The position numbers and the translations under genes are program-made. Below are positions 11,074-34,132 of a stretch of 64,000 nt of DNA, one piece after another. This DNA is from Bacillus pumilus (GTDB lineage: Bacteria; Bacillota; Bacilli; Bacillales; Bacillaceae). Location of the stretch: contig NZ_CP027116.1 in the NCBI RefSeq assembly GCF_003431975.1, positions 2,976,001-3,040,000 of the forward strand. Direction: 5' to 3'. Position 1 is the first letter of the stretch, and each line of letters begins with the position of its first letter. The notes beneath the pieces were generated by a model. It saw only the letters and a program-made list of their open reading frames with translations, ran no database searches and was not told the DNA's origin.

Positions 11074-11172
11074 AGTCTGCCGATTCACCGGCAGACTCAG
11101 CGTGTAGACAAACCCTCGCATTCGGTGTCAGTACTCGGCCTTCCTAGACTTCAAAGGTTTTCTATCACGCTG
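11074..11172 (-). repeat. Structured repeat element, copy A, with abutting terminator hairpin
   Basis: The 75-bp element at 11098-11172 has imperfect inverted ends (CAGCGTG A TAGA AAACC against GGTTT G TCTA CACGCTG on the minus strand) and a conserved interior (AGTCTAGGAAGG ... GAATGCGAGG). It is directly followed on the minus strand by a 9-bp hairpin (AGTCTGCCG arms, 11074-11097) and seven T. The second copy at 34011-34132 has the same arrangement with a different terminator stem. It may be a small RNA or 3' UTR element, or a MITE-like repeat. Confidence 0.7.
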
Positions 11173-11182
11173 AAAGGAAGAG

Positions 11183-11215
11183 AAAGGGCTAAAATAAAGA
11201 TCATTTTAGCCCTTT
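11183..11215 (-). terminator. Hairpin after the secreted stress-type protein gene
   Basis: A perfect 13-bp stem (AAAGGGCTAAAAT and complement) with a 7-base loop begins 11 bases past the stop codon of the 11226-11699 gene. The tract after it on the minus strand is pyrimidine-rich (CTCTTCCTTTC) but not a pure T-run, so termination may be partial. Confidence 0.6.
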
Positions 11216-11225
11216 GTCAATAAGA

Positions 11226-11699
11226 TTAGAATCTTTTATGGAAATCGACAGTGCCACTTCCATCCTCGCGGTCAAAGCTGCCGACAAATGTCCAGTTAAT
11301 ATAGCCGCCGTCACCATTGTTGACGAACGTACCATCTTCAAATACCCAAATTCCAAACGTAATACCATCATATTCAACACTATCATAGTAAACCACATTG
11401 TTCAGTCCGCTAAAGTCATGATCTTGGCTTAAATTTTGGACAACCACGTTGTAGTTTTGACCTGCTTCATAGAAGGCACTGTACGCCGCATTTTTTACAA
11501 ATCCATCACGATTTTGAGATGATTTTACTGCTTGTTCGATTTTATCGGCAATGGCTACTGGATCAATAGAAACACTTCCATCAACACCTGTTGTCGTAGC
11601 AGCTTCAGCCGTTTGACCAAAAGTCGTAAGAGATAGAGGGGCAGCAACCATTGACGTAGCGATCACAGAACTAACAAAAAATTTGCTTGTTTTTCTCAT
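11226..11699 (-). CDS. Small secreted protein (YolA-like family)
   Basis: This 157-residue precursor has a signal peptide (MRKTSKFFV, hydrophobic core, cleavage near AEA-A at residue 34). The mature part has a helical segment (AIADKIEQAVKSSQNRDGF) and a glycine/aromatic-rich beta region (GIWVFEDGTF, NGDGGYINWTFVGSF). It resembles the small secreted stress-type proteins typified by YolA of the SP-beta prophage, but this is from memory and not verified. AAAGGAGGAG lies upstream of the ATG. The function is unknown. Confidence 0.65.
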   Translation of the reverse strand: MRKTSKFFVSSVIATSMVAAPLSLTTFGQTAEAATTTGVDGSVSIDPVAIADKIEQAVKSSQNRDGFVKNAAYSAFYEAGQNYNVVVQNLSQDHDFSGLNNVVYYDSVEYDGITFGIWVFEDGTFVNNGDGGYINWTFVGSFDREDGSGTVDFHKRF

Positions 11700-11834
11700 T
11701 ATTTCTAACTCCTCCTTTAATTGGTATGTTTATGTACTACCCCTTTTTCTGTCTCTTAAACACTAAATTATGAAAAAACTTCTTTTTCTACCATTTAAGA
11801 GGATGGTTTTACTGTTTAAAAGAGCTGAAACAAC

Positions 11835-11860
11835 AAAAAACTACTCTTCTACAAGAGTAG
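11835..11860 (-). terminator. Terminator of uppP
   Basis: On the minus strand an 8-bp stem (CTACTCTT / AAGAGTAG) with a 4-base loop is followed by six T, 10 bases after the uppP stop codon. Confidence 0.85.
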
Positions 11861-11869
11861 CTTATAGCA

Positions 11870-12703
11870 TTACATAAATAGAATAAATAAAATCACACCT
11901 AGGATGATTCGGTATATCGCAAAAGGCACTAGTTTGATTTTATTGATCAGCTTGAGGAAGAATCGAACAACAAAGAGAGCCACAACAAATGCACTCACAA
12001 AGCCAACGATAAAGAATGGCAGCATATCTGTTGTTAAGTATTCAGCATTTTTTACAAGTGTTAAGAAGCTTGCTCCCGCCATAATCGGCATTGCCATAAT
12101 AAATGTAAAGTCAGCTGCCGCACGGTGATTCAAACCAAGTATAACCCCGCCTGCGATCGTCGAACCTGAGCGAGAGAAGCCTGGCCACAATGCCAAACAT
12201 TGAAACAGTCCGATATAAAGCGCCTGTTTGTAAGACATGTTATCAACAGAGCTTGTTTCTGTTTTACGTTTATTGATCCAGTCAGCGATAAGCATTAACA
12301 CTGCACCTAAAATCAAACCGACAGCGACCGTTCTCACATCAAATAAGTATTTATCAATATAATCTTCGAATAAGAAGCCTAAAATGACGGCTGGGACGAG
12401 TCCTACTGCAATTTGGGCAATGGTCAGCTTATGCCCGCTGCGTTTTTGTTCTTCGGTAATATTTTTCTTTAAGCCTAACAAGTTCAAAATACGATCCTTG
12501 AACACAATCATGACAGCTAAAATAGAGCCTAACTGAATCACGACTTTAAATGTGTTTGCCGCCTCTGGCGTAATGATTTCCTTCGACTTTAACCATAGGT
12601 CATCGACAATGATCATGTGACCTGTAGATGAGACAGGTGCATACTCTGTTAATCCTTCGACAATTCCTAAAACCAGTGCCACGAATAAATCCCATAGATT
12701 CAT
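11870..12703 (-). CDS. uppP: Undecaprenyl-diphosphatase UppP (BacA type; YubB)
   Basis: This 277-residue integral membrane enzyme removes one phosphate from undecaprenyl diphosphate to recycle the lipid carrier of cell-wall synthesis. It also gives some bacitracin resistance. Both family signatures are present: EGLTEYAPVSSTGH near residue 16 and GFSRSGSTI near residue 165. About seven hydrophobic segments follow the usual pattern. ATG 12703 was chosen over an upstream TTG because AAAGGAAAG precedes it. In B. subtilis yubB is next to yubA, as here. Confidence 0.93.
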   Translation of the reverse strand: MNLWDLFVALVLGIVEGLTEYAPVSSTGHMIIVDDLWLKSKEIITPEAANTFKVVIQLGSILAVMIVFKDRILNLLGLKKNITEEQKRSGHKLTIAQIAVGLVPAVILGFLFEDYIDKYLFDVRTVAVGLILGAVLMLIADWINKRKTETSSVDNMSYKQALYIGLFQCLALWPGFSRSGSTIAGGVILGLNHRAAADFTFIMAMPIMAGASFLTLVKNAEYLTTDMLPFFIVGFVSAFVVALFVVRFFLKLINKIKLVPFAIYRIILGVILFILFM

Positions 12704-12758
12704 GATTTTCTTTCCTTTCAATTCTGATCTTTTGAACAGGCCAAACTATCTATGTCCA

Positions 12759-12798
12759 CATAAAGACAAGCTTCCTTTATCGAAAGCTCGTCTTTATG
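12759..12798. repeat. Long inverted repeat between yubA and uppP
   Basis: CATAAAGAC-A-AGCTT pairs with AAGCT-C-GTCTTTATG, a 14-bp stem with one mismatch and a 10-base loop. There is no T-run on the minus strand immediately after it. It may be a partial terminator of yubA or a stable 5' hairpin of the uppP transcript. Confidence 0.5.
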
Positions 12799-12831
12799 AT
12801 ACTATATTTTTTTCAAAAAAAGATTATGACA

Positions 12832-13974
12832 TTAAACCTTTTCTTCTTTATACAAATTGGATCGCATTTTGAACCAATCAAACAAATGGGTCGTGATGAC
12901 CTTCAGAACGGCATACGTCGGAATCGCGACAATGATGCCGACTACGCTGAACAATTTACCTGCTGTTAATAGAACAAAGATAATCGTAATCGGATGGATA
13001 TGAAGGTTTTTCCCCATGACCTGAGGAGAAATGAATTTCCCTTCAATAAGCTGAACCACTGTCCAAACAATGATGAGTTTTAAAAGCATCACTGGTGATG
13101 TCACAAGCGCAATCACAATCGCTGGTGTAATCGCAATCGTTGGCCCAAGGTAAGGCACCACACTTGTACATGCCGCAATGATCGCTAGCAGCAGCGCATA
13201 GTCAAGTCCAATAATCAGATAACCGATTAAAAGAAGAACACCGATACAGAAGCTGACAATGATCTGTCCGAGAATATAAGAGCTCAAGCGATGGTTCATT
13301 TCGTGAAGCACGATATGTGTATGCTCTCTAAACTTATTCGGAATAAATTTCAGGAAATAGTCAGGTAGTTTTTTGCCGTCTTTTAATAAATAAAATAGAA
13401 TAAACGGAACCGTCACGATTGAAATGATGACTTCAGTGAGCGCCCCTAGGAATGTCCCCACTCCAGTAAAGGTACTTTCCAAAATCTTCGTCGCTTGACT
13501 GGATGCTTTACTGACCAATTCAGAGACGTTAAAATTCATCGTTTTCTGCGCCTGATTAATGAAGTTGCTTCCCGTTAGTTGGCGGATCTGTTCTTCTACC
13601 GTATCAACATATTTCGGAAGGTTATGAAACAGACTCATCGTTTGCGCTTGCAAAAAAGGAATAATAGACACAATGGTCACGGTAATGATGCCAATAATGA
13701 CAATATATAAAAGCAAAATCGAAAAAATCCGTTTGACTCTAAACCTCTCTAACAAGTTAACAATCGGATTTAATAAATAATATACGACTCCCGTTAAAAT
13801 AATCGGTAAGGCGATGGTTTTGACGAGTACAATGAGCGGTGTGAAAATAAAGGATGTTTTCATGAAAACAAGGATATTCAATCCGATTAATAGCAGGACG
13901 AGTAAAAAGAGAACAAACTTGTTATCAAGAAAAAATTTTCTAAATCGACTGCTCCACATTTGCATAGAATTCAT
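12832..13974 (-). CDS. yubA: AI-2E family membrane protein YubA
   Basis: This 380-residue membrane protein belongs to the AI-2E (PerM/TqsA) family of putative transporters. About eight hydrophobic segments are visible, with a long hydrophilic stretch at residues 110-165 and the family-typical sequence [15 protein letters not shown] near residue 275. Members include Na+/H+ antiporters and small-molecule exporters, and the substrate cannot be told from sequence. It sits upstream of uppP, as yubA does in B. subtilis. Confidence 0.82.
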
Positions 13975-14038
13975 ATCGTTCCTCCAAACTCGGCTATTTT
14001 ATAAATAAATTGTACACTACCTGATCATGATATAGTGG

Positions 14039-14431
14039 TCATTGTTTCAGCTTTTTTTCCCATTTCGCAATGGACATCACCCATACAATCATAATCGGCT
14101 GTCCAATCAGCCTTATCCATAGTAAGGCTTGATCTGTGCTTTCTTGCCCTGGAAATGGAATTCCCTCTCGTGCAGCAAATAGATTTGCAGGGAAAATGAG
14201 TACAAGATAGACAGCAATGGTTTTTGCTGCTGTCACTCTGACACTTGGCAGAAGCAGCAGAACCGCCAGCAGCCATTCAAGGCATGCAGTCGCATAGACC
14301 ATTACATATGGAAATGGCCAGCCTGGCATCATCCGGGCAAAACCGCCTGGCTCTATCACATGAAAAATGCCGGCTGATATGAATAAAAGCGCAAAGACGT
14401 ATGTACTTCCTATATGCAGGACACGCTTCAT
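14039..14431 (-). CDS. DoxX-like small membrane protein
   Basis: This 130-residue protein has four hydrophobic segments and the DoxX-family features SAGIFHVIEPGGFARMMP near residue 20 and a glutamate in the second helix region (ACLEWLLAVLLL). GGAGG lies 8 bases before ATG 14431. Related proteins are linked to redox or thiol stress, but no function can be assigned here. It is followed by yubA on the same strand. Confidence 0.72.
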   Translation of the reverse strand: MKRVLHIGSTYVFALLFISAGIFHVIEPGGFARMMPGWPFPYVMVYATACLEWLLAVLLLLPSVRVTAAKTIAVYLVLIFPANLFAAREGIPFPGQESTDQALLWIRLIGQPIMIVWVMSIAKWEKKLKQ

Positions 14432-14578
14432 GTTCGTTTCCTCCTCTCCCTTCTATTTGAGTATTACCCGAATGAAGGAAGAAACTACCCACTTTTCGTA
14501 CATTTATATCCTTTATGTAAGACGCATCAGCCTGTATAAAGGTTTCATCCGCTCTTCAATAAAAAGAATATTCTTTCA

Positions 14579-14605
14579 TACAAACGCTTTCAAAGCATGT
14601 ATAAT
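14579..14605 (+). promoter_or_regulatory. Promoter -10 with a cre-like site upstream of yulF
   Basis: TATAAT at 14600-14605 is preceded by TACAAACGCTTTCA (14579-14592), which matches 12 of 14 positions of the CcpA cre consensus TGWAANCGNTNWCA. The cre-like site occupies the spacer and -35 zone, a position that would give catabolite repression. Confidence 0.45.
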
Positions 14606-14632
14606 CAGAGAAAAGCAGAAGGAGGGAATGAC

Positions 14633-15637
14633 ATGGTTCGATTTGCTGTCATCGGAACGAACTGGATTACAGATCGATTCTTACAGGCCGGTGAAGGAAT
14701 GGCTGATTTTACATGTACAGCCGTCTATTCACGGTCCGCTGAAAAAGGCCAGGCCTTTGCCGACAAATACGGCATTGATACGGTTTTTACGAATTTACAA
14801 CAAATGGCGGAAAGTGATGCGTTTGATGCAGTGTATATTGCGAGTCCAAATGCTCTTCATAAGGAGCAGGCTATGTTGATGATGGAGCATCAAAAGCACG
14901 TTTTATGCGAAAAACCATTCGCCTCTCACCGAAAAGAAGTGGAAGAGATGATTGCTGCAGCGAAGAAACATCAAGTTTGTTTGATGGAAGCGATGAAAAC
15001 GACATTTCTGCCAAACTTTCTTCAAATCAAGCAGCATCTTAATCAGCTCGGGCCCATCCGGCAAGTGGTCGCTCATTACTGTAAATATTCCTCAAGATAT
15101 GATGCTTATCGAAATGGCGAGCTGCCAAATGCTTTTAAGCCTGAATTATCGAATGGTTCTTTAATGGATATCGGTGTGTACCTTGTCTACCCTGCCATCT
15201 ATTTATTTGGTCTGCCGAATCAAATCACCGCAAGAGGATATAAGCTTTCTTCTGGTGTGGATGGGAGCGGTACAGTCCTTTTACAGTATGAAGGGCATCA
15301 AGCACTTCTTTTTCATTCTAAAATTTCAACGTCTCATTTATCTGCGGAAATTCAAGGAGAGGATGCGACGATGGTGATTGATCAATTCCACCGTCCTTCA
15401 CGTATCACGATCCATGATCGTCACGGACACAAAACCGACCTCTCTCTCAAAGATGATCAGCCAGCCATGTATTATGAAATTAGTCACTTTATTGAATGTA
15501 TTCAGCAAGGATTGGGACAGTCTCCAGTCAATACGTTCGCCTTATCTGTTCAAGCCATGTCCGTCATGGACGAAGCAAGAAGGCAAATGGGCGTGCTGTA
15601 TCCTGCCGATAGACAATATGAATGGGGCATGACATGA
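14633..15637 (+). CDS. yulF: Gfo/Idh/MocA family oxidoreductase YulF
   Basis: This 334-residue protein is an NAD(P)-dependent sugar or polyol dehydrogenase-type enzyme. The N-terminal Rossmann fold starts at FAVIGTNWI, and EKPFASH near residue 96 is the conserved cofactor and catalytic lysine motif of this family. The C-terminal domain is alpha/beta, used for substrate binding. ATG 14633 follows GGAGGG by 6 bases. It precedes the chemoreceptor cluster, as yulF does in B. subtilis. The substrate is unknown. A cre-like site upstream suggests a sugar-related role. Confidence 0.82.
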   Translation: MVRFAVIGTNWITDRFLQAGEGMADFTCTAVYSRSAEKGQAFADKYGIDTVFTNLQQMAESDAFDAVYIASPNALHKEQAMLMMEHQKHVLCEKPFASHRKEVEEMIAAAKKHQVCLMEAMKTTFLPNFLQIKQHLNQLGPIRQVVAHYCKYSSRYDAYRNGELPNAFKPELSNGSLMDIGVYLVYPAIYLFGLPNQITARGYKLSSGVDGSGTVLLQYEGHQALLFHSKISTSHLSAEIQGEDATMVIDQFHRPSRITIHDRHGHKTDLSLKDDQPAMYYEISHFIECIQQGLGQSPVNTFALSVQAMSVMDEARRQMGVLYPADRQYEWGMT

Positions 15638-15639
15638 TG

Positions 15640-15683
15640 AACAAAGGGCGAACATGATGTGTATTGTTCGCCCTTTGTTTTTT
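15640..15683. terminator. Bidirectional terminator between yulF and the DJ-1 family gene
   Basis: A 12-bp stem (AAAGGGCGAACA and complement with a small mismatch) is followed by a T-rich tract on the plus strand. A weaker T-run exists on the other side. Confidence 0.8.
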
Positions 15684-15699
15684 GTTTTAGGTCAATTGT

Positions 15700-16224
15700 T
15701 TAGGTTGCCGCTAACACATCCGCAAATGCTTTTACATATGGAGGAAGATCCGGCGGACGTCTACTAGAGACGAGATGACCATCTGTGACGACTGCCTCAT
15801 CGAACCATTCCGCACCAGCATTAGTCATATCATCTTTAATACCAGGTGTACTTGTCACTTTTTTGCCTTGCAGGATTCCTGCTGAAATCAGCACCCAGCC
15901 AGCATGGCAAATTTGCCCGATTGGTTTCGCCTTTGCATCAAATGCACGGACGATGTCTAATACTTCTGGATAACGGCGTAGTTTATCCGGCGCCCAGCCT
16001 CCAGGGACAAGCACAGCATCATATTCATCCGCTTGAATGGAATAGAAATCTGCATCAGATACAGCCGGCACACCATACTTTCCAATGTACTCATGATTTG
16101 CTTTTTCTCCTACAAGATGAACAGTTGCCCCTTCTTCTCTTAAACGCAGAACCGGATACCATAGCTCTAAATCTTCAAAATCATCACTGACAAACGCAAT
16201 GACCTTCTTATCTGATAAACGCAT
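15700..16224 (-). CDS. DJ-1/PfpI family protein (YraA/YfkM type)
   Basis: This 174-residue protein has the DJ-1/PfpI fold. The nucleophilic cysteine is in GQICHAGW near residue 106, the conserved acid in DDFEDLELWYP near residue 17, and VLVPGGWAPDKLR is the family loop. Relatives in B. subtilis (YraA, YfkM) are general stress proteins associated with repair or degradation of glycated or aldehyde-damaged proteins. It is a single-gene unit. Specific activity is not proven by sequence. Confidence 0.85.
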   Translation of the reverse strand: MRLSDKKVIAFVSDDFEDLELWYPVLRLREEGATVHLVGEKANHEYIGKYGVPAVSDADFYSIQADEYDAVLVPGGWAPDKLRRYPEVLDIVRAFDAKAKPIGQICHAGWVLISAGILQGKKVTSTPGIKDDMTNAGAEWFDEAVVTDGHLVSSRRPPDLPPYVKAFADVLAAT

Positions 16225-16276
16225 AACATCTCTCCTATTCTTTTGATTTCCTCTATTGTACGAGATGATCTCTTAA

Positions 16277-16308
16277 AAAGAAAAGCGGTTCCCCTTGAGG
16301 AGAACCAC
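16277..16308 (-). terminator. Terminator of the tlpB-like receptor gene
   Basis: On the minus strand GTGGTTCTCC pairs with GGGGAACCGC (one mismatch) and is followed by TTTTCTTTTT, just past the receptor stop codon. Confidence 0.8.
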
Positions 16309-16314
16309 TTGGCC

Positions 16315-18303
16315 TTATTCGCTGATCTTGAATTTTTTAATTAAATCACGTAACTCTTCCGCCATTTGGGAAAGTGTTGTAGAGGAAGAACTAATTTCTT
16401 CCATAGAAGCAAGCTGCTCTTCAGCAGATGCGGCGATATCTTGGATGCTTGCTGAGCTCTCTCGTGATACATCTGCAATGTCATTCACTGCTTTAGAAAT
16501 TTGCTCAGATCCTTTTGAAAGTTCACGTACCGTTGTATTCATTTCATTCATTCTTGTTGCAATTTCCGCTGTTTGCTCATTGATTTGTGAGAAGCTTTCT
16601 TTCGTTTGATCAGTAATGGAAAGACCATTCTTCACTTCTTCATTCACGGATTTGAACATATTTTGAGACGTTTCGATTTCAGAGACGATTTCTTTTACAA
16701 GCTTTTCAATCTCTTTTGCTGAATCAGATGATTGAACAGCAAGTTTACGTACTTCTTCTGCGACAACAGAGAAGCCTCTGCCTGATTCGCCTGCACGTGC
16801 TGCTTCAATGGCGGCATTGAGTGCAAGTAAATTCGTTTGATCTGCAATGCCGTTAATCACGCCTAGGATGTTTGTGATATCTTTTGATTTATGCTCCAGC
16901 CCGTTGATCACCCCTTCAGCTTCTTTCACTGAATGATCGATCGTCTTCATTTGGCCGACGGTTTGCTCCACAAGCTGTCCGCCTGTTTCTGCGACTGTTT
17001 TTGATTGAATAGATGAGGCTGTGATGACATCAGACGTTTCTGCAACCTCGGTCAGACCTTCATTCATTTGTTTTAAATGAGTCGCACTTTGCTCGACCAT
17101 TTCACTTTGATTTTCGTTACCGTTTGAGAATGATTCAATAGATGATGTAATATGTTCTGTTGCTTTAGTTGTTTGACCCGCACTTGCCGTCAGTTCTTCA
17201 GATGAAGAAGCCACGTTTTCTACAGATGTTTGTACAGCCTGAATAACATCTCTTAGAGACTCACTCATTTCATTAAAGCTTGTGCCAAGCTGTCCAATTT
17301 CATCTTTTGACCTGACATTAATTTTTTCTGTTAAATCTCCCTCACTGATCTTCTTTGAAGAAGAGACAAGCATAGAAAGTGGTTTTGTAATGGAGCGGAT
17401 GATCAAGAAGATCAAAATTCCACCAATGATAAGCGCGCCTGCTAAAATGATAGCGGCCATGTTAAAGACTGGCTGTGCAGCTTCTTCTACCTCTGTCACA
17501 AACATCGTACCGACAATTTTCCAGCCAGTCGCTTTATTTGTGGTGAACTCCATTTGCTTTTCTTTTCCTTCAAACATGTAACTCATAGAACCTTCATCCT
17601 GTGAATACAGCTTTTCTAACCATTCACCAGATAATTTTGTTCCTGCTTTTTTCGTTGGATGGGCAACAAATGTACGGTCTGGACTTCCGATAAAGGCATA
17701 GCCTTGTTTCCCAATGTTAATGCTATTTGACTCTTTTACTAGATTTGCAATGTTTAAGTTCATGGCAATAACTCCTGATCCGTCCTCTAATTTTTTAGAG
17801 ATTGTGACCACAAGCGTACCGGTTGATGCTGTTGGATACGGTGCTGAAACAGACAGCTCACCGTTTTTCGCCCAGCCGTCTTTATACCAATCCCGCTCTG
17901 TTGCGACATAGTCAGCAGGCATTTTTTTATTAGGATATCTTGAAAACACTTTGCCGTCATTTGAAGCGACAAAAATGCCTTCTGTGTCATCATTCATACT
18001 CATGAATTGCTCAAAGCGTCCTTGAATATCTGTCGTTCCTTTTTGCTTGAGCTTTTTCTCTGTGATCCATTTGCTAAAGAAATCGGCTGCGTCAGTTTTC
18101 ACTTTGACAACCTTCGTAATATTTTTATCTAGCTGCTCCACGTTTTCTTTAGCGCTTTGCATGATTTGATCATTCAAAGAGGTGCTTGCCGTATGATATG
18201 AAGAGAATGCCAATACAATAATTGGGCATAAGAGAATAAATAAGAAAGAGAATACAAGCTTTTTTGAAATAGATGGCTTTCTGAAATACTGTATGAATTT
18301 CAT
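16315..18303 (-). CDS. tlpB: Methyl-accepting chemotaxis protein (TlpB position)
   Basis: This 662-residue transmembrane chemoreceptor has TM1 at about 17-37, an extracellular dCache-type sensor at 38-280, TM2 at 281-303, HAMP at 304-358 and a signalling hairpin. The hairpin tip is [20 protein letters not shown], which contacts CheA and CheW. It would report an extracellular ligand to the flagellar motor. It is the last of four tandem paralogues. The symbol follows the B. subtilis order (tgl, mcpB, tlpA, mcpA, tlpB), and paralogue identity within the array is less certain than the family. A sigma-D type promoter lies upstream. Confidence 0.85.
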
Positions 18304-18337
18304 AAAAAAGAAAACTCCTTTTAGTAAGATAGTATAT

Positions 18338-18364
18338 ATATCGGAAGTACTACTGGGTTGTTTA
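18338..18364 (-). promoter_or_regulatory. Sigma-D promoter of the tlpB-like gene
   Basis: On the minus strand TAAA is followed after 15 bases by TCCGATAT. The B. subtilis motility consensus is TAAA-N14-16-GCCGATAT, so 11 of 12 positions match. It lies 35 bases upstream of the ATG. Confidence 0.82.
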
Positions 18365-18425
18365 CTTTTTTAACTTATTAAAGTCTAAATAAGTCCAAAT
18401 TACCCAAAATATATGCACTGAATGG

Positions 18426-18454
18426 AAAAACACCTGGCGTTTAGACGCCAGGTG
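18426..18454 (-). terminator. Terminator of the mcpA-like receptor gene
   Basis: A 9-bp GC-rich stem (CACCTGGCG / CGCCAGGTG) with a 6-base loop is followed by five T on the minus strand. Confidence 0.88.
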
Positions 18455-18468
18455 TTTCCCTGTAGCTC

Positions 18469-20609: not shown

Positions 20610-20620
20610 TTTCATTATGT

Positions 20621-25626: not shown

Positions 25627-25629
25627 AAA

Positions 25630-25663
25630 AAGCCTCTTGTCTATTGGTTATGACAAGGGGCTT
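25630..25663. terminator. Bidirectional terminator between tgl and the small downstream gene
   Basis: A 12-bp stem (AAGCCTCTTGTC / GACAAGGGGCTT, one wobble) has T-rich tracts on both sides. The last five codons and stop of the minus-strand gene lie inside its arm. Confidence 0.82.
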
Positions 25664-25896
25664 TTGTATGCCTTGCGTTTATGATAATCTTGCAGCGTGC
25701 CAAGCATCGTGTTCGCAAGGATCTCCATTTTTTCTAAGTCTTTTCTAGTGACTGGCGGATCGTGCCGGCTCCATTTTACGTAACGAACAAAATAGTAGTG
25801 TCGAATGGGCGTAAGGACGGCAGGAGAGTGTGGGAATTCATCAAACCAACATTCAATTTGTCCTTTTTTACGGTATGAATGTTTTAAGATGTCCAT
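25648..25896 (-). CDS. Conserved small protein of unknown function
   Basis: This 82-residue basic protein is rich in aromatic residues (RHYYFVRYVKWSRHD) and has no motif I recognise. The position after tgl corresponds to the small gene yuzH of B. subtilis, but I cannot confirm homology. The 3' end is embedded in the shared terminator. It is probably cytoplasmic, since no signal or membrane segment is visible. Confidence 0.55.
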   Translation of the reverse strand: MDILKHSYRKKGQIECWFDEFPHSPAVLTPIRHYYFVRYVKWSRHDPPVTRKDLEKMEILANTMLGTLQDYHKRKAYKSPLS

Positions 25897-25920
25897 CCTG
25901 TCACACCACCTAGCATGATT

Positions 25921-26952
25921 TTATATGCGCGTCAGTTCGTGCATAATCTCTTCAACGGTTAAAATGGAGTGAATACGGCCAACACCCTGTCCTGCCCAAA
26001 GAGCCATTTGATCAGGGTTCCCTGCGGCAGCAGCGGCTTTTCGCATCGGTGTCGTCCATACATGCTGAACTGGATAAGGAAGCACCCTCTCTTCATTTTT
26101 TCTTTCTTCCTCCATCCATTCGTTCACAATTCCTCTTGCTCTTTTCCCTGAAAAAAGCCTTGTGATCTTGGTTTCACTGCTTTCCGCCTGCAAAATCGCC
26201 TTTTTGTATACGTCTGCTGCTGCACTTTCCTGGCTGGCTAAAAATCTTGTGCCGATTTGAACCGCATCCGCTCCAAGCGCTAGAGCGGCTTTCACTCCTG
26301 CTCGATCTGTGATCCCGCCTGCAGCAATCAATGGTACTCGGCAGAGCGGCTTGACATCGGTTATCAGACTAAAAAGTCCCAAGAGGGCATCTCCTCTTGA
26401 AGGTAAAAAGGTACCACGATGTCCCCCTGCTTCGCTTCCTTGCAGAACAATGGCATCCATTCCTTTCTCCTCTAAAAGCAGTGCCTCCTCTTTTGTTGTG
26501 GCGGTTCCAATTAAAAGAATCCCCTTTTGTTTGAAGCGTTGAATGGTTTGTTCATTTGGACAAGCGAAAGTAAAGGAAACGACCGGTACTTCTTCTTCCA
26601 GAAGAATGTTGATTTTCTGTTCAAAATCACCCCACAGTGCTTCTTCGCTTGGCATACGATCAGCTGGCGGATATGCAGGCAGCCGCTTTTCCCAAAACGC
26701 TACGTCTTCTTTTTTGGGTTCAGAAATTGGCTCTGGAACAAACACATTGACCTGAAACTGGCGGGGTGTCAGCTGTTTGACCTGTTTGATTTGCTGCCTC
26801 ATATTGTCAGGCTGCACATACCCACTTGCCAAGCTGCCAAGTCCCCCGTACTGTGAAACAGTGGCTGCCAGCTGCGGTGTCACAGCTCCTCCGGCCATTG
26901 GCGCTTGGATGATTCCATATTCGATTTGCAATAATGTCGTGATATCCCCCAT
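25921..26952 (-). CDS. Nitronate monooxygenase family flavoprotein
   Basis: This 343-residue TIM-barrel FMN enzyme belongs to the nitronate monooxygenase (2-nitropropane dioxygenase) family. It shows the N-terminal PMAGGAVTPQLAA, the FMN phosphate-binding AAGGITDRAGVKAALALGAD and the QIGTRFLAS segments. It oxidises alkyl nitronates such as propionate 3-nitronate, which detoxifies them. The FabK enoyl reductase is a related alternative, but here no fatty acid genes are nearby. The strong GGGGGA binding site precedes ATG 26952. I do not recall this gene at the matching B. subtilis locus, so it may be a local insertion. Confidence 0.85.
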   Translation of the reverse strand: MGDITTLLQIEYGIIQAPMAGGAVTPQLAATVSQYGGLGSLASGYVQPDNMRQQIKQVKQLTPRQFQVNVFVPEPISEPKKEDVAFWEKRLPAYPPADRMPSEEALWGDFEQKINILLEEEVPVVSFTFACPNEQTIQRFKQKGILLIGTATTKEEALLLEEKGMDAIVLQGSEAGGHRGTFLPSRGDALLGLFSLITDVKPLCRVPLIAAGGITDRAGVKAALALGADAVQIGTRFLASQESAAADVYKKAILQAESSETKITRLFSGKRARGIVNEWMEEERKNEERVLPYPVQHVWTTPMRKAAAAAGNPDQMALWAGQGVGRIHSILTVEEIMHELTRI

Positions 26953-27060
26953 TTATTTCCCCCATTTCTTTTGTCGTTTCTATAAAACCATACCCTTTTT
27001 ATGCGAAACAAATCTCTGCCTATCCGAAGAAATTTCTCTTACCTAAAGTTTACCAAGCAA

Positions 27061-27090
27061 AAAAACCTCGTCAAGCGCTACGAGGTTTTT
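27061..27090. terminator. Bidirectional terminator at the yugS 3' end
   Basis: AAAAACCTCG pairs with CGAGGTTTTT around a 10-base loop, with T-runs usable on either strand. The yugS stop codon overlaps one arm. Confidence 0.83.
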
Positions 27091-28381
27091 AGGAGAAATG
27101 AACCTTCTTGATTTCAATGGTTCGAATATGGTGATCTTCTGCATCTATGATGGTAAATTTACAGCCTTCTGCTTCAATCGTATCCCCAATCTCAAAATCA
27201 AATTTATGCGTCATCATCCAGCCGGCAATTGTATCAACATCATCATTCTCAATGGCTAAATCCAATAAATCATTCACTTCATCAATCAAGGCTTTCCCAT
27301 CCATTACATAGTGGAAATCACCTTTTTTAACGATGTGAGGGGTTTCATCTTGATCATATTCGTCTCGAATTTCGCCCACAATTTCCTCTAATATGTCCTC
27401 TACTGTGACAAGTCCGGCTGTTCCTCCATATTCGTCTACGAGCACCGACATATGAATTCGTTCCTTTTGCATCAAAATGAGCAATTCTTGAATAGGAGTG
27501 CTTTCAATCACCCGAATGACCGGACGCATTAAGTCTTCAATCGTCACATCTTGATTTAAAAAGCTCGCCTTGAACACATCTTTGCTATTGATGACACCAA
27601 TCACATGATCTTTGTCTTCTTTAATGACAGGGTAACGTGTGTACCTTTCGTTTAGCATATAATGCGTCACGTCTTCAAGCGTCTGTTCAATCTCTATGGC
27701 TGAAATTTCTGTACGAGGGATCATGATCTCTCTCGCCACTCGGTTATCAAATTCAAAGATTTTATTCACATATTTGTACTCAGATTGGTTAATTTCGCCC
27801 TTCTCATAGCTTTCAGATAAAATGAGACGCAATTCTTCCTCACTGATCGCCACTTCATGTTCTTTGACAGAATGAAAACCGAATAATTTTACAATGCCTC
27901 TCGCCGCCCCATTTAATGCTTTAATAAATGGGTACATGACTTTATAGAAAAAGATGAGCGGTTTTGCTGTGATAAGGCTGACCGCCTCTGCCTTTTGAAT
28001 GGCGATCGTTTTAGGCGCCAGTTCCCCAACAACGACATGTAAAAACGTAATGATCACAAACGCAATGATAAACGATAGAATGTCTATTAATGCGGAATGA
28101 AGCGCTAGCTTTTCAAAAAGTGGATGCAGGAAATGTTCTACCGTCGGCTCGCCCAGCCACCCTAAGCCTAAAGCCGTGATGGTAATGCCAAGTTGACAGG
28201 CAGATAAATATTCATCAAGATTTGATATGAGCTTTTGAACATGAATGGCTCTCTTATCACCGCTTTCAATCAGTTGATTGATTTTAGAGCCTCTAATTTT
28301 CACAATCGCAAATTCAGTGACAACAAAAAATGCTGTCGCAGCAATGAGTAAAATGACTAAAAATACGTTTAAAATATACAA
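27089..28381 (-). CDS. yugS: CorC/HlyC family membrane protein YugS (CNNM + CBS + CorC domains)
   Basis: This 430-residue protein has an N-terminal CNNM/DUF21 membrane domain (residues 1-180, about four hydrophobic segments, ACQLGITITALGLGWLGEPT), a CBS pair (about 205-335) and a C-terminal CorC_HlyC domain. The family includes magnesium and cobalt efflux or resistance proteins. The start is a TTG at 28381 lying right at the end of a terminator-like hairpin. The only good ribosome binding site (AGGAGGTGAG) is on the other side of that hairpin. No later methionine fits the family N-terminus. Transported ion is inferred only from family. Confidence 0.85.
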   Translation of the reverse strand: MYILNVFLVILLIAATAFFVVTEFAIVKIRGSKINQLIESGDKRAIHVQKLISNLDEYLSACQLGITITALGLGWLGEPTVEHFLHPLFEKLALHSALIDILSFIIAFVIITFLHVVVGELAPKTIAIQKAEAVSLITAKPLIFFYKVMYPFIKALNGAARGIVKLFGFHSVKEHEVAISEEELRLILSESYEKGEINQSEYKYVNKIFEFDNRVAREIMIPRTEISAIEIEQTLEDVTHYMLNERYTRYPVIKEDKDHVIGVINSKDVFKASFLNQDVTIEDLMRPVIRVIESTPIQELLILMQKERIHMSVLVDEYGGTAGLVTVEDILEEIVGEIRDEYDQDETPHIVKKGDFHYVMDGKALIDEVNDLLDLAIENDDVDTIAGWMMTHKFDFEIGDTIEAEGCKFTIIDAEDHHIRTIEIKKVHFS

Positions 28382-28420
28382 AAAAAACCCTTACCTAACA
28401 ATGGTAAGGGCTCACCTCCT
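28380..28420 (-). terminator. Terminator-like hairpin between the yugS ribosome binding site and its TTG start
   Basis: On the minus strand AGGAGGTGAG (28420-28411) is followed at once by an 8-bp stem (CCCTTACC / GGTAAGGG, 7-base loop, 28410-28388) and eight T (28387-28380). The last two T are the start of the TTG codon. Folding the stem would shorten the effective Shine-Dalgarno to start distance from 33 to about 10 bases. It also has every feature of an intrinsic terminator after yugP. Confidence 0.75.
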
Positions 28421-28430
28421 CTGGCATCAA

Positions 28431-29114
28431 TTAATCATTACGGCCATTTAGGAAGATCATTACAAAACGGAGCAATTCAAATAAGGAGACAAGGGCCGCT
28501 GCGACGTACGTAAGAGCTGCAGCATTTAACACCTTGTTCACGCCTCTTTCTTCACTGCTTCTAATGATTCCTTCTGAAACAATGATATCTTTTGCACGAG
28601 AACTTGCATTAAACTCGACAGGCAATGTCACAAGCTGAAAGAACACAGCCGCTGAGAACAAAATGATCCCAAGCCCGATTAAGTTAAGGCTGCCGAGCAA
28701 GATTCCACCAAGGAAAAGAAGCGGGGCAACACCAGATGCAAAGTTCACGACAGGAAAGATTTTATGTCTCAACACAAGCGCACCATAGGATTCTTGATGC
28801 TGCAAGGCATGTCCAACCTCGTGTGATGCAACTGAAATGGCCGATATGGAATGGCCATAGTACACAGGTTCAGATAAGCGAACCACACGCTGCGTCGGGT
28901 CGTAATGATCAGTCAAAGTTCCTCTTACCGGTTCAACAGGCACGTCGTATAACCCGTTGCGATCTAAAATATATCGAGCGGTTTCCGCACCTGTTTTCAT
29001 ACTGGCAGCTTCAACCTTTGAATACTTTTCAAAATTATTCTTTACCTTAAATTGTGCCCAAAATGATAATCCCAATGCGGCAAATGTTAAAAAATAAAAA
29101 AACAGCATGCTCAT
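28431..29114 (-). CDS. yugP: Membrane zinc metallopeptidase YugP
   Basis: This 227-residue protein belongs to the YugP family of membrane zinc peptidases. The HEVGH motif (SVASHEVGHALQHQ, near residue 94) provides the zinc ligands and catalytic glutamate. One hydrophobic segment precedes the active site and three follow it (around 120-170 and 190-220). The N-terminus is membrane inserted with little signal. Substrates are unknown. yugS follows within 50 bases and may be co-transcribed subject to the hairpin between them. Confidence 0.88.
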   Translation of the reverse strand: MSMLFFYFLTFAALGLSFWAQFKVKNNFEKYSKVEAASMKTGAETARYILDRNGLYDVPVEPVRGTLTDHYDPTQRVVRLSEPVYYGHSISAISVASHEVGHALQHQESYGALVLRHKIFPVVNFASGVAPLLFLGGILLGSLNLIGLGIILFSAAVFFQLVTLPVEFNASSRAKDIIVSEGIIRSSEERGVNKVLNAAALTYVAAALVSLFELLRFVMIFLNGRND

Positions 29115-29185
29115 CAGCTTCCTTTTATTTTATATATTTATTTACAATTTTAAAGACTTTTATGTAGCGTGTACAGCAAAAAGCA

Positions 29186-29410
29186 CTAGGTCTTTTTGAG
29201 GGGAACAACTGCGCCAATGAAAAAGAAGAACACACCTAAGCATGCTGTATAAAAGGTTACCGTTCCGTATAGATCTTGAAAAAAATGAAGCCATGAAAAA
29301 TCATTCATAAAATGATTGACAGTATTCAAGTCAAACACAAGTAAGATGACAGCCGATGATAAACAGTGCGCACCGATAAAAAGAAGTACGGTCTTTTGAA
29401 CGAACGACAT
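29186..29410 (-). CDS. Small membrane protein of unknown function
   Basis: From ATG 29410 (GGAGGG 7 bases upstream) the product has 74 residues with two hydrophobic helices (TVLLFIGAHCLSSAVILLVF and FYTACLGVFFFFIGAVV) and a basic C-terminus. It is read divergently from the yugO channel gene. I do not recognise the family. Confidence 0.55.
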   Translation of the reverse strand: MSFVQKTVLLFIGAHCLSSAVILLVFDLNTVNHFMNDFSWLHFFQDLYGTVTFYTACLGVFFFFIGAVVPLKKT

Positions 29411-29536
29411 TCGAATTCCCTCCTTCTTCTCTTTTATTTTAAGATATGGAATCTGTTTTAATACATGACGAAGATGAAAAAATGTTTCCTTAATCGGGCA
29501 TACTGACATTAGCAGTCTCCTGAAAGGAAGAGTCCA

Positions 29537-30523
29537 ATGAAATCAAACCGAATCTTTATCGCTTGGCTAAGGTGGCCACTGTATCTTCGAATTGCCATCA
29601 TCATCTGCTTCTTACTGCTCTTTTTTGGACAATTAATCGTCTTGCTGGAACCGAAGCAGTATCATACGATCTTTGATGGGATCTGGTGGGCCCTCATTAC
29701 AGTCGCGACGGTCGGCTATGGTGATTTTGTTCCGCAAACCATGCCCGGACAAATCGCAGGTATGGCGCTGATTTTGATCGGGGCAAGCTTTGTCACGGCT
29801 TATTTTGCAACACTTGCTGCCGCTGTGTTCAGTAAGCAGCACCATTATGTAGAAGGGAAGGTCGCCTTTAAAGGGAAAGGACATCTCATTATCGTCGGTT
29901 GGAATGAAAAAACAAACAAACTGCTTCAGTCGTTTCAAACGATTGATCCAGCTATGCCGATTGTGCTGATTGATGACTCCTTAAAGGAAGGGCCTCTACT
30001 AGAGAATGTTCATTTTATTAGAGGGCATGGGACTGAGGATGGCACACTACGCAAAGCCAATATTACCGGTGCAGACGCACTGATGATTACCGCAGATCAG
30101 CACGAAAATGAAGTAACAGCCGATATGCAGAGTGTTTTAACATTACTTGCAGCAAAAGGATTAAACCCGTCGCTCTACTGTTTAATTGAAATCTTAACAG
30201 ATCGATATGTGAAAAATGCCGAGCGTGCTGGAGCGAGTCAAGTCATTCATACCTCTGATGCAGTCAATCATTTAATGGTCGAGCACTTTCTTTTAAAGGA
30301 ACAGCTCAAATCGCTAAAGAAAAAACGACATATGACTTTGCATAAACATGTAACCACCATACCGATCCCAGCTTCACTAGCTGGAGAAACATTCTTAACA
30401 GCCCTCCATCACTTTTTAGAGCATCATGTGATCATTGTCGGCGTACAAAAAAAAGAAGGACCCATGATGAATCCTCCCTTTGGCTATGAACTGCATCCAG
30501 AAGATGAACTCATTAGCCTTTAA
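29537..30523 (+). CDS. yugO: Potassium channel YugO
   Basis: This 328-residue protein combines a two-helix pore domain (TM at about 14-35 and 75-97) with the selectivity filter TVGYGDF (residues 55-61), and a cytoplasmic RCK domain (TrkA-N Rossmann fold GHLIIVGWNEKTNKLL, about 113-240, plus a C-terminal part). In B. subtilis YugO releases potassium in biofilms, giving electrical signalling and triggering KinC. The gene overlaps the convergent yugN by 4 bases. Confidence 0.93.
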   Translation: MKSNRIFIAWLRWPLYLRIAIIICFLLLFFGQLIVLLEPKQYHTIFDGIWWALITVATVGYGDFVPQTMPGQIAGMALILIGASFVTAYFATLAAAVFSKQHHYVEGKVAFKGKGHLIIVGWNEKTNKLLQSFQTIDPAMPIVLIDDSLKEGPLLENVHFIRGHGTEDGTLRKANITGADALMITADQHENEVTADMQSVLTLLAAKGLNPSLYCLIEILTDRYVKNAERAGASQVIHTSDAVNHLMVEHFLLKEQLKSLKKKRHMTLHKHVTTIPIPASLAGETFLTALHHFLEHHVIIVGVQKKEGPMMNPPFGYELHPEDELISL

Positions 30524-30921
30524 AGCAGTGCGTCTTCTAATTCTTTGACGAGCGAAAAGCCAATCTCAGTATATGCTTTTGATACTTCTCCATCTTTCTC
30601 TTTTGGTTCTTGGAATTGGTTAAAGGATGCTCCCACATTTCCCACCATCGCATGATCATCTAATTTATCTTGATAAACATGCTTTAAGAGAAAGGGATCT
30701 CCCAGTTTCACCACAACGCCTGGCTGATCCAGCTGGCCTTTTTCTGCTGTAAAAGGAACTCTGAGAAAGGTATAGCCATCACGGTTATCAATTTTATAAT
30801 CAAAATACCCGTGATCATAATCCCAGTTGCCATTAATGACATAACCGAGCGGCTTCATGGTCTCTTCTAAATGGTAAAGTGAAAAGCTTTCACCAGGCAG
30901 TCTGGATGGTACATGAATCAT
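30520..30921 (-). CDS. yugN: YugN-like protein
   Basis: This 133-residue cytoplasmic protein belongs to the YugN-like family of unknown function. ATG 30921 was chosen because GGAGGG lies 6 bases upstream and the resulting length fits the family. It is acidic, with a beta-rich centre (NRDGYTFLRVPFTAEKGQ). The gene is convergent with yugO and shares 4 bases with it. Confidence 0.8.
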   Translation of the reverse strand: MIHVPSRLPGESFSLYHLEETMKPLGYVINGNWDYDHGYFDYKIDNRDGYTFLRVPFTAEKGQLDQPGVVVKLGDPFLLKHVYQDKLDDHAMVGNVGASFNQFQEPKEKDGEVSKAYTEIGFSLVKELEDALL

Positions 30922-30964
30922 ACGAAACCCTCCTTTTTGTATAGGGTTCGTTAAAGAGAGGAAT

Positions 30965-31168
30965 TCATACATTACCTCTCGTGATTTGTACATTGTTTGT
31001 AAAAGCGGCATCCAATAAGCTTTGATTGGTTAATTGATTCGTCTCGTTATCACTGCCAGCACCTTCTGTATCCTTCACAGCACACATAGGACAAATACGT
31101 CCGACATTGCCAAAATTGACAATTGCCTGACCAGAAATGTCGTGAATGTAAATATGATTTGTTCTCAT
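30965..31168 (-). CDS. GerPA/GerPF-like spore protein
   Basis: This 67-residue protein resembles the GerPA/GerPF family of small spore proteins that help germinants cross the coat. The telling part is SGQAIVNFGNVGRICP followed by GAGSDNETNQLTNQS, which parallels the SGG(V/I)xNFGD...GSGxxNTGD pattern of that family. AGGAGGGTGA lies 6 bases before the ATG. It contains two cysteines (CPMC), which is not typical of GerPA. Family assignment is by eye. The gene is solitary rather than in a gerP operon. Confidence 0.6.
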   Translation of the reverse strand: MRTNHIYIHDISGQAIVNFGNVGRICPMCAVKDTEGAGSDNETNQLTNQSLLDAAFTNNVQITRGNV

Positions 31169-31240
31169 GTTTCACCCTCCTCTACTCATTATTCTATGTG
31201 CAGAACATAGGGAGGCTTGCACAGGAACCATGAGAACTTA

Positions 31241-31275
31241 AAAAAGGCACACCCTTTGATAAGGTGTGCCTTTTT
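31241..31275. terminator. Terminator of pgi
   Basis: AAAAAGGCACACC pairs with GGTGTGCCTTTTT around a 9-base loop, giving usable T-runs on both strands. Confidence 0.87.
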
Positions 31276-31279
31276 ATTC

Positions 31280-32635
31280 TTACGATTGTTTCAGACGGCT
31301 TTCAAGCTCTGCTTTTTTCTCTTCGAAGCCTGGTTTTCCTAATAAAGCAAACATATTCACTTTATACGCTTCTACGCCAGGCTGGTCGAATGGATTGACG
31401 CCTAGTAAATATCCAGACATCGCACATGCTTTTTCAAAGAAGTAAACGAGGTAACCGAATGTATAAGCATCCATCTCAGGAATTGTCACGATGAGATTTG
31501 GTACTTTTCCATCAGTATGAGCAAGCATCGTTCCTTCAAATGCCTTTTTGTTGACGAAATCAACCGTTTTTCCTGCCAGATAATTCAAACCGTCAAGATC
31601 CTGTTCTTCTGCTTCAATCACAAGCTCATGCCGAGGCTTGTCTACATTGACGATTGTTTCAAACAAGTCTCTTCTTCCTTCTTGGACATATTGACCAAGT
31701 GAATGAAGATCTGTTGAGAAGTTCGCAGATGAAGGGTAAATTCCTTTTTCATCTTTCCCTTCACTTTCACCGAACAATTGCTTCCACCATTCTGAGAAGT
31801 ATTGCAGGCCTGGCTCATAGTTAATCAGCATTTCAATCGTTCTGCCTTTATTGTAAAGGACATTACGGACGACAGCATATTGGTACGCCGCATTCTCAGA
31901 AAGCTCAGATGAAGCGAAGTCTTCACTTGCTTTTGCCGCACCTTCCATCATCTGATCAATGTCTGCCCCGCTTACAGCGATTGGCAATAGACCCACTGCT
32001 GTTAATACTGAATAGCGTCCACCTACATCATCTGGGATGATAAATGATTCGTAGCCTTCTTCCGTTGCTAATGTTTTCAGTGCACCTCGTGCCTTGTCAG
32101 TTGTCGCATAAATACGTTTTTTCGCTTCTTCAGCACCGTATTTTTCAATGAGGAGCTTTTTAAAGATGCGGAATGCGATCGCTGGCTCTGTTGTCGTACC
32201 AGATTTTGAAATCACGTTAATAGAGAAATCTGCATCTTCCAATAGATCCATCACATCTGTTAAATAAGAGGAACTGATGTTGTTTCCAATAAAAATGATT
32301 TGCGGTGTCTTGCGTTTGCCTTTTGGCAGCGTGTTATAGAACGAGTGATTCAAAAATTCAATCGCCGCACGTGCACCAAGATAAGAGCCGCCGATTCCGA
32401 CAACAAGCAAAACATCAGAGTCAGATTTAATTTTATCTGCACTTTTTTTAATGCGAGCAAATTCTTCGCGATCATATTGCTTCGGTAAGTCAACCCAGCC
32501 TAAATAATCACTGCCTGCACCCGTTTGTTCATGAATATTATGATGGGCCACCTTCACAAAATCTTTTAGATATGTAAGCTCATGCTCTTGAAAGAAAGGT
32601 AACGCTTTCGAGTAGTCAAATTGAATATGTGTCAT
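31280..32635 (-). CDS. pgi: Glucose-6-phosphate isomerase
   Basis: This 451-residue enzyme interconverts glucose 6-phosphate and fructose 6-phosphate. [11 protein letters not shown] (about 77-87), the sugar-phosphate-binding [10 protein letters not shown] (about 144-153) and the C-terminal GVEAYK with catalytic lysine are all present. It is very close in sequence to the 450-residue B. subtilis enzyme. ATG 32635 was chosen 10 bases after GGAGGG. It is a single-gene unit between yugN and yugK. Confidence 0.97.
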
Positions 32636-32723
32636 CGCTTGTAAGCCCTCCATTACGTTAGTTCTGTCCCTTTCACTTTAGCGGAACTAGCTATTGAAAT
32701 CAAGTGATCGTCACTCGCATAGC

Positions 32724-32753
32724 AAAAAGCCGTTTCTCGCTATGAGAAACGGC
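32724..32753 (-). terminator. Terminator of yugK
   Basis: A perfect 10-bp stem (GCCGTTTCTC / GAGAAACGGC) with a 5-base loop is followed by five T on the minus strand. Confidence 0.9.
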
Positions 32754-32761
32754 AAGCTGAA

Positions 32762-33934
32762 TTATAAAGAAGCTTTCAAAATAGAAAGAATGTCATCACG
32801 ACCAAGTTTCATAAAGTTACCAAACCCACCGTATTCCATTTCTTTCGCCGCAATGTCGGCAATTTTGTCCAGTTGATCTTCACCAATGTCATAATCTGCT
32901 AGACGGTTTGGTGCACCGAGGCTTGTCCAGAAGGCTGACAATTTGTCGATTCCTTCTAATGCGATATCACGATCTGATTTTCCTTCTGTCTCGATGTCAA
33001 ACATGCTTAGCATGAGGTTTTTAAAGCGTTCTACATTGTGATCGAGTGTATGACGCATCCAATTTGGGAAGAGGATAGCAAGTCCACCTGCATGCGGAAT
33101 GTCATAGACAGCCGATACAGCATGCTCAATCGTATGAGAAGCCCAGTCACCAAAGTAGCCCATTTGCAGCGTGCCATTTAAAGCAATGGTTCCTGCATAC
33201 AGGATCGTTTCGCGGTGCTCATAGTTTTGTAAGTCTTCAAGTAGCTTTGGTGCTGTCTCGATGACTGTTTGAAGAACAGCAAAACACATTCGATCTTGTA
33301 GCGGTGTGTTTTTTACATTATGAAAGTATTGCTCGAAGACGTGGCTCATCATATCGACCATGCCATACACCGTCTGGTTTTCTGGCACAGAATATGTATG
33401 CTCAGGGTCTAGGATGGAAAAAGCAGGGTGAGTCACGGAACTGCCCCACACATATTTTTCATTCGTTTCCCAGTTTGTGATGACAGAGTCAGGATTCATT
33501 TCTGAACCAGTTGCTGCAAGTGTCAGCACTGTGCCAAATGGCAATGCTTTTTGAGCGGTTGTTTTCTTTGAGATAATGTCCCAAACATCTCCGTCATACT
33601 CTGCTCCAGCCGCAATTGCTTTTGTACAGTCGATCACACTTCCGCCGCCAACGGCTAATAAGAAATCAATCTTTTCCTTTTGGCAGATGTCGATTCCCTT
33701 TTTCACTGTGTTGAGGCGCGGGTTTGGTTCAACACCTGATAGCTCAAATACTTCGGCTCCTGCTTCATTTAACGCGCTGATGACATTGTCATAAAGACCA
33801 TTTTTCTTAATGCTGCCACCGCCATATACAAGTAACACTCGTTTTCCATAACGAGCGAGTTCGCTTTTTAGTCCCTCTAGTTGTCCTTTTCCAAACATTA
33901 ATTTCGTTGGATTATAGTAAATAAAGTTTTCCAT
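32762..33934 (-). CDS. yugK: NADH-dependent butanol-type iron alcohol dehydrogenase YugK
   Basis: This 390-residue group III (iron-dependent) alcohol dehydrogenase reduces aldehydes such as butyraldehyde with NAD(P)H. The coenzyme-binding [15 protein letters not shown] (near residue 95) and the metal-binding [12 protein letters not shown] region with surrounding histidines are conserved. ATG 33934 with GGAG upstream gives a length equal to family members. It is a tandem paralogue of the next gene, as yugK/yugJ are in B. subtilis. Unlike the neighbour, it has PDSVI in place of SGSVI after SEMN. Confidence 0.9.
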
Positions 33935-34010
33935 CTGTTGATACATCTCCTTACAGTGTATAGACTCAAAAACAGGAAAGATTACTGTAACATATGTACA
34001 CGTTGAACTC

Positions 34011-34132
34011 AAAAAAAAGATAGCTGCATGAAAGCAGCTATCCAGTGTGTAGACAAACCCTCGCATTCTTTGTCAGGTCTGCGCTCCGGCGCTCTCGCCC
34101 TTCCTAGACTACAAAGGTTTTCTATCACGCTG
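34011..34132 (-). repeat. Structured repeat element, copy B, with abutting terminator hairpin
   Basis: The 90-bp element at 34043-34132 shares both ends and the interior AGTCTAGGAAGG / GAATGCGAGG blocks with copy A (11098-11172), but has a longer variable arm (GGCGCTCTCG region). On the minus strand it begins 10 bases after the yugJ stop codon. It is followed directly by a different 9-bp stem (GATAGCTGC / GCAGCTATC, 34019-34042) and eight T, so it forms the 3' UTR and terminator of yugJ. Confidence 0.72.

Follow-up and report, generated by a model that had tools for sequence, protein, structure and literature searches.

Two short repeats in a 64,000-nucleotide stretch of the Bacillus pumilus genome (contig NZ_CP027116.1, positions 2,976,001 to 3,040,000, called the window below) were very probably the remnants of a miniature inverted-repeat transposable element (MITE) of about 175 bp, which would be moved in trans by transposases of the IS1182 family and inserted by duplicating a hairpin. 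The two repeats are named copy A and copy B. Among the 46 copies of the host genome which had both ends, 39 carried the same 17-30 bp on both flanks, and this segment was usually a whole terminator hairpin of the host. The MITE option had already been left open by the initial annotation of the window, next to a new small RNA or a 3' untranslated region element, and it was borne out by ends that form inverted repeats, by the duplication of targets, by sites that are empty in relatives and by a transposon that is a candidate for the autonomous partner.

Repeat family and its spread

The core sequence AAACCCTCGCATTC was present in the 3.94-Mb host genome with 47 exact and 8 one-mismatch matches on both strands, and this copy number ruled out a chance pairing of two sequences. 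When up to two mismatches were allowed, 80 matches were found against 11 for the reversed pattern, so the 25 two-mismatch matches were partly noise. The host-genome set comprised 62 loci taken from the core matches, some of the two-mismatch matches being left out. They contained 54 different copies with a recognisable right end, of which 46 had a left end too.

The full unit was about 175 bp long, with two-ended copies mostly of 173-178 bp. It began with CAGATTGTTGACAAAGGGC, went on with a left hairpin, the tract GTCTTCTTTT and an outer stem enclosing a central hairpin, and ended in GGGTTTGTCTACACGCTG. The ends of the MITE, CAGATTGTTGACAAA and CAGCGTGTAGACAAA, were imperfect inverted repeats identical at 12 of 15 positions. 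Inserted copies come to lie in 3' untranslated regions. When the open reading frames (ORFs) next to the 54 copies were classified automatically, in a rough manner that was wrong for at least copy B of the window, 31 convergent, 18 co-directional, 1 divergent and 4 unclear cases were obtained.

By BLAST the element was found in 21 of 41 genomes, namely in 21 of 25 genomes of the host genus and in 0 of 16 of other genera. An exact-pattern scan of public contigs returned at least 120 stretches, and the 80 with titles were all from Bacillus. Among the matches listed were B. pumilus, B. altitudinis, B. safensis, B. xiamenensis, B. zhangzhouensis, B. australimaris, B. stratosphericus, B. swezeyi, B. 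paralicheniformis, B. haynesii, B. glycinifermentans, B. inaquosorum, B. spizizenii, B. tequilensis and Bacillus sp. A search of plasmids gave four records with partial matches (two Stutzerimonas, one Klebsiella and one Bacillus), each covering less than 80% of the query. The records labelled Stutzerimonas and Klebsiella (NZ_CP078511.1, NZ_CP078512.1 and CP063894.1) could be contaminated.

Duplicated terminator hairpins as target sites

A set of 2,070 mismatched pairs served as the reference: a flank pair counted as a duplication when its score exceeded their 99.5th percentile, and 36 of the 46 host-genome pairs scored above their maximum. In 35 of the 39 duplications the left duplicate held a stem of 7 or more uninterrupted base pairs (G-T allowed). 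Four or more of the 8 nt preceding the left hairpin were A in 35 of 39, and four or more of the 8 nt that follow the right hairpin were T in 31 of 39, with a background A content of about 2.3 per 8 nt. By these flanking A and T runs, the targets look like terminators that would work in both directions.

The same was observed in the public contigs matched by the exact pattern. Among the matches listed, the flanks of 60 of 72 two-ended copies counted as duplicated, with the 99.5th percentile of the mismatched public pairs as threshold, and stems of at least 7 bp were present in 55 of these 60 compared with 1 of 60 after shuffling; a few mismatched public pairs scored equally high, because orthologous sites were included. 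A stricter definition of the duplication was satisfied by 34 of 41 copies in the host genome and by 51 of 69 public copies among the matches listed. In these stricter sets, with the public copies again those among the matches listed, the centre of the hairpin coincided with the centre of the duplication within 1 nt (32 of 34 and 50 of 51), and the duplication began with A (30 of 34 and 47 of 51) and usually ended with T.

Empty and reoccupied sites

Both window sites were empty in the related genomes G003 and G008. For two further loci, L031 and L035, the query flanks overlapped by one hairpin in G003, which means that the sites were empty there, and the site of L035 was likewise empty in G016. 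The L031 site was filled in G000 and G016, and in G021 it was filled in the opposite orientation, as judged by the first bases of the element, so this terminator was probably hit more than once.

These observations bear on the explanation favoured by the initial annotation, in which a structured RNA, either a 3' untranslated region element or a small RNA, is held beside terminators by selection on its function. That explanation was drawn from the common ends, from the blocks in the interior and from hairpins that adjoin the copies without spacing and have 7-8 T on the minus strand, and all of these were found in the sequence at the places given for them. The argument that placement without a conserved stem speaks for RNA-level selection failed, since the swappable stem is the target site, duplicated in most two-ended copies. 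Insertion of the transposon at the foot of terminator hairpins is enough to put an unrelated hairpin next to each copy, and no RNA-level selection is needed for it. Hairpin duplications, empty sites and opposite orientations at one terminator mean that the placement comes from transposition; the conserved placement is a choice of target and thus no proof of RNA function. A structured RNA kept in place by selection is therefore highly improbable, although 15 of 48 predicted pairs changed on both sides, G-U outnumbered A-C among single changes and a full copy folded far better than shuffled sequence (see below).

The loop of the hairpin at the site of copy A was the exact reverse complement of the loop in G003, and the loops of L031 and L035 were also closer to the reverse complement. 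Meanwhile the L031 loop in G016, a filled ortholog, had the other orientation, and the loop at the site of copy B was not inverted. Loop inversion as a signature of insertion was rejected on these two cases, as it was not tied to insertion. As a separate observation, the loops of terminator hairpins look inverted between related species with stems unchanged, which may reflect a general process of palindrome inversion. The two hairpins flanking the element of L035 (525-698) differed by a compensatory change of T-A to G-C in the stem, as if the palindrome arms had been corrected jointly.

Candidate partner transposons of the IS1182 family

The host genome encoded 11 full-length transposases of the IS1182 family (NCBIfam NF033551). 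DDE transposase domains were identified in both types tested, and the transposases seen were 454-478 aa long. An element of 175 bp has nowhere near the room to encode such a protein and can only be a non-autonomous derivative. The left ends of the IS1182-family transposons of the host genome were CAGATTGTAGAGAAA and CAGCTTGTAGACAAA. One type is an insertion sequence (IS) of 1505 bp. Compared with the left end of this IS, the MITE agreed at 13 of 15 positions in its left end and at 14 of 15 in its right end; compared with the right end of the IS, each MITE end agreed at 12 of 15.

The IS elements were also found in duplicated hairpins. From the 11 genes, eight loci of the host genome were obtained, and duplicated hairpins were present in five of them (L093, L094 with one mismatch, L095, L097 and L099); of the rest two were nested in each other, and one had hairpins on both sides with a left end which was not recognisable. 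In the nested pair (L096 and L100, G000 near 1.48 Mb), one IS1182-family element lay in the palindromic end of the other, which is of another type, and had duplicated that end. In other genomes of the genus, all 10 full-length IS loci examined (L146-L155) had duplicated hairpins, while the duplication search gave nothing usable for L156-L160, which hold broken or incomplete IS genes. These counts leave out L161-L174 and three of the 11 host-genome genes. In L150 (genome G049, about 1166-2953), one terminator held both a MITE and a complete IS1182-family element in the order hairpin-MITE-hairpin-IS-hairpin. The MITE and the IS1182-family transposons thus share their mode of targeting. Similar ends together with the same target mode make mobilisation by an IS1182-family transposase likely, and the transposases encoded in the same genome would supply the activity in trans.

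The most likely mechanism is as follows. On each strand the transposase would attach one end of the element at the 5' foot of the hairpin, and this is easiest to picture with the hairpin extruded into a cruciform. The single-stranded gaps would then be the hairpin itself, so that fill-in would copy the whole hairpin. After insertion, transcription from either side would cross the element and could still be stopped beyond it, at a hairpin that has a T run of its own. The insertion should therefore cost the host little.

A remnant of a group IIC intron or of another retroelement was considered too. Group IIC introns insert beside terminator hairpins, and this preference is in common with the element. 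Meanwhile no group II intron family was matched at an expectation value (E) of 1 in the eight loci scanned, and the idea is contradicted by the target duplications; a DDE transposon with similar ends is also present. Inverted-repeat ends and the duplication of a complete hairpin are not known to be features of introns. The probability of such an origin is close to nil.

RNA fold and strand asymmetry

Covariation was examined in an alignment of 65 of the 66 available copies, with the structure predicted from the same alignment. Changes on both sides occurred in 15 of the 48 consensus pairs, while 99.0% of the cells still paired, and 0 of 500 shuffles, which ignore the relatedness of copies, reached this. 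Of the 15 pairs of the left hairpin (helix 1), 8 had such changes, as had 7 of the 17 pairs in the central part (five in helix 5, one each in helices 4 and 6). The closing stem (helices 2 and 3), where paired substitutions had been proposed as a check, had none in its 16 pairs among the 65 copies, and it was rejected as a covarying RNA stem. A full copy with its flanks folded at z -10, and both window copies folded better than shuffled sequences at z about -4.2.

For single changes away from a Watson-Crick pair, counted by parsimony on a FastTree tree, 32 led to G-U, 13 to A-C (binomial p 0.007 for 32:13) and 9 to other mismatches. In unpaired columns the balance of the corresponding changes was reversed, at 39:60 (Fisher p 0.0006 against the paired 32:13), and all paired columns together gave 49:37. 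These wobble counts rest on a poorly resolved tree, and copies can convert each other. The asymmetry gives modest support for constraint on a single strand, which would be the minus strand in the window. The minus strand had been named as the functional one from the placement of the hairpins; that ground fell away with the argument on placement, and the strand itself received this independent but modest support.

For Rfam 15 no match was found at the curated score in the whole window, in line with the initial annotation, which could not assign a named RNA family. In the region of copy B, with E up to 10, the best match was sbrA (E 0.15), on the terminator and below the cut-off. In eight loci of the family with E up to 1, three matches were below the cut-off, two of them (STnc40 with E 0.03, and Phe_leader) in the copy region of L012, and a SAM riboswitch was found in L022 outside the element. 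A new RNA of Rfam type was thus discarded, as the window and, within the element, the eight family loci gave nothing at curated scores.

An RNA-level constraint on the element is plausible from these patterns, and an RNA role is possible. Paired changes may also arise without RNA selection, through arm-to-arm correction of DNA palindromes. Against a selected RNA stand the closing stem without two-sided change, the lack of an Rfam match at the curated score, the prediction of the structure from the alignment on which it was then judged, shuffles blind to relatedness, the weak tree and a palindrome correction that may mimic covariation.

It is rather unlikely that the mobile element has since been co-opted as a portable terminator or 3'-end stabiliser through its own left hairpin and U-rich tract. 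The left hairpin, with GTCTTCTTTT directly after it, is the part of the family with the most covariation (8 of 15 pairs). It could replace the host hairpin, which has a truncated T run on the side of the element. The copies look dispensable, however, since all four compared sites were empty in at least one close relative. A wider reading, in which Bacillus IS1182-type transposons and the MITE insert in a cruciform-directed, terminator-duplicating and self-repairing manner, and in addition an RNA fold selected on one strand spreads as a ready-made 3' untranslated region module, is put forward tentatively, with the chances somewhat against it.

Several points weigh against the reading of the window copies as remnants of a MITE moved by IS1182-family transposases. 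Seven of the 46 two-ended copies (L003, L006, L027, L029, L038, which is copy A, L044 and L049) had no duplication above the threshold, nor had copy B, which is outside the 46, and the same was true for 12 of 72 two-ended public copies among the matches listed. The best end match (14 of 15) paired the right end of the MITE with the left end of the IS, while right to right only 12 of 15 agreed. When the interior of the MITE was compared with the tested IS loci by BLAST, only matches of 10-15 bases were found, the best at the ends; the interior is unlike the IS, so the MITE did not arise simply by deletion from one of the IS types found in this analysis. In addition, the covariation and the wobble asymmetry inside the element were not explained by transposition alone.

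Relation to known elements

Palindromic targets are reportedly covered in a review by Siguier, as cited by the papers on IS1272 and TnSha1. The direct repeats of IS1182 elements are listed as variable and long. Duplication of whole terminators may in part be known to IS specialists already.

IS1272 and TnSha1 of staphylococci are similar to the Bacillus elements in having an IS1182-family transposase and hairpin-forming targets without a consensus in primary sequence, terminators included. They have 16-bp inverted repeats, and several of their insertions are described just downstream of genes (PMC4923244, PMC5678879). TnSha1 and IS1272 were reported by Furi et al. 2016 to delete hairpins without duplication, with terminators among the targets (PMC4923244), and Wan et al. 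2017 described that IS1272 replaces the target hairpin (PMC5678879). The hairpin is thus partly deleted or replaced with no target duplication in the staphylococcal elements, whereas it is duplicated by the Bacillus MITE in 39 of 46 copies. In the legend of Fig. 13 of Wan et al. 2017, a pathway b was drawn, as an alternative only, in which a cruciform is attacked at its 5' feet and a duplication results (PMC5678879). The Bacillus copies fit this pathway b.

For the IS1182 family, transposition with or without target duplication and a possible recognition of DNA structure have been described (PMC12056078), so the family was already known to vary. Its members are over-represented between convergent genes (PMC9208149). 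A 4-bp repeat was given for one member (PMC3196728), and hairpin duplication is therefore not universal in the family. Compared with the family at large, the members in the host genome share similar ends and the hairpin duplication with the MITE, which has no transposase and an unrelated interior.

RUP, BOX and SPRITE are short repeats with structured transcripts like the MITE here, and SPRITE carries a terminator-like sequence; unlike the MITE, no duplication of a host terminator as target site is described for them in the available part of the review (PMC10969869). IS elements inserted in REP palindromes also use palindromic extragenic targets (PMC1525189), with the difference that their target is a family of repeated sequences, while terminator hairpins of many sequences were used here. 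DucS, a structured RNA of B. altitudinis (PMC10504365), was considered but not used.

In the literature searched, with ISfinder and most subscription journals outside its scope, neither this MITE family nor a demonstrated duplication of whole terminators was found. A MITE family that has whole-terminator target duplication and that its ends and target would tie to IS1182-family transposons was thus not found described there. The copies provide many natural examples of a hairpin-duplicating route, which one paper drew merely as a possibility for this transposase family, and they do so in a genus that offers excellent strains for laboratory work. They also explain dozens of repeated gene-end segments in Bacillus which could pass for new RNAs. 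Two matters are opened to testing: how a DDE transposase recognises the shape of DNA rather than its sequence, and whether terminator duplication makes such insertions tolerable.

Window copies and neighbouring genes

Both window copies were real, but the extents first given to them (11098-11172 and 34043-34132) were incomplete, as alignment to a full-length copy revealed (Table 1). A hairpin of 13 bp, which had been taken as separate from copy A, turned out to be the left hairpin of the element itself, and it is for this reason that copy A reaches to 11223. Copy A kept the right end, the outer stem and the left hairpin, and had lost the central hairpin (element positions about 98-140) and the extreme left end. 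Copy B kept the right end and the outer stem; the left 54 bp with the left end and the left hairpin were missing, and the middle was shortened. Each copy was flanked by a hairpin on one side only, and at copy A one target hairpin was present with the far-side duplicate absent. Copy B was located between two genes of the same direction.

Table 1. Positions in the window of the two MITE copies, their target hairpins and the adjacent genes.
Feature	Position	Strand	Basis and remarks
MITE copy A	11098..11223	-	About 126 bp; BLAST alignment to full-length copy; site empty in G003
MITE copy B	34043..34133	-	About 91 bp; BLAST alignment to full-length copy
Right terminal inverted repeat of copy A, CAGCGTGTAGACAAA	11098..11112	+	Sequence
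Right terminal inverted repeat of copy B, CAGTGTGTAGACAAA	34043..34057	+	Sequence
Left hairpin of copy A, part of the element, covarying across the family	11180..11218	-	BLAST, family alignment
Host terminator hairpin after bioB, target site of copy A	11074..11097		Single hairpin at the empty site in G003 and G008
Host terminator hairpin, target site of copy B, one copy left	34019..34042		Empty site with one hairpin and T run in G003 and G008
Biotin synthase-like radical SAM gene (bioB), its terminator hit by copy A	10071..11069	+	ORF; Radical_SAM and BATS domains
Small gene with signal-like N terminus (by eye), convergent with bioB	11226..11699	-	ORF; no Pfam match
Iron-containing alcohol dehydrogenase ORF, stop 9 bp from copy B	34143..35465	-	Fe-ADH domain; name yugJ from the initial annotation
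Another iron-containing alcohol dehydrogenase, co-directional with the first, on the far side of copy B	32762..33934	-	Fe-ADH; inside ORF 32762-34066

A third copy at 15641-15681 of the window was rejected, because the sequence is a terminator-like hairpin and its match was weak. This hairpin, which starts with AACAAAGGGCGAACA and resembles the left hairpin of the MITE, was located between two convergent ORFs and is probably an ordinary terminator.

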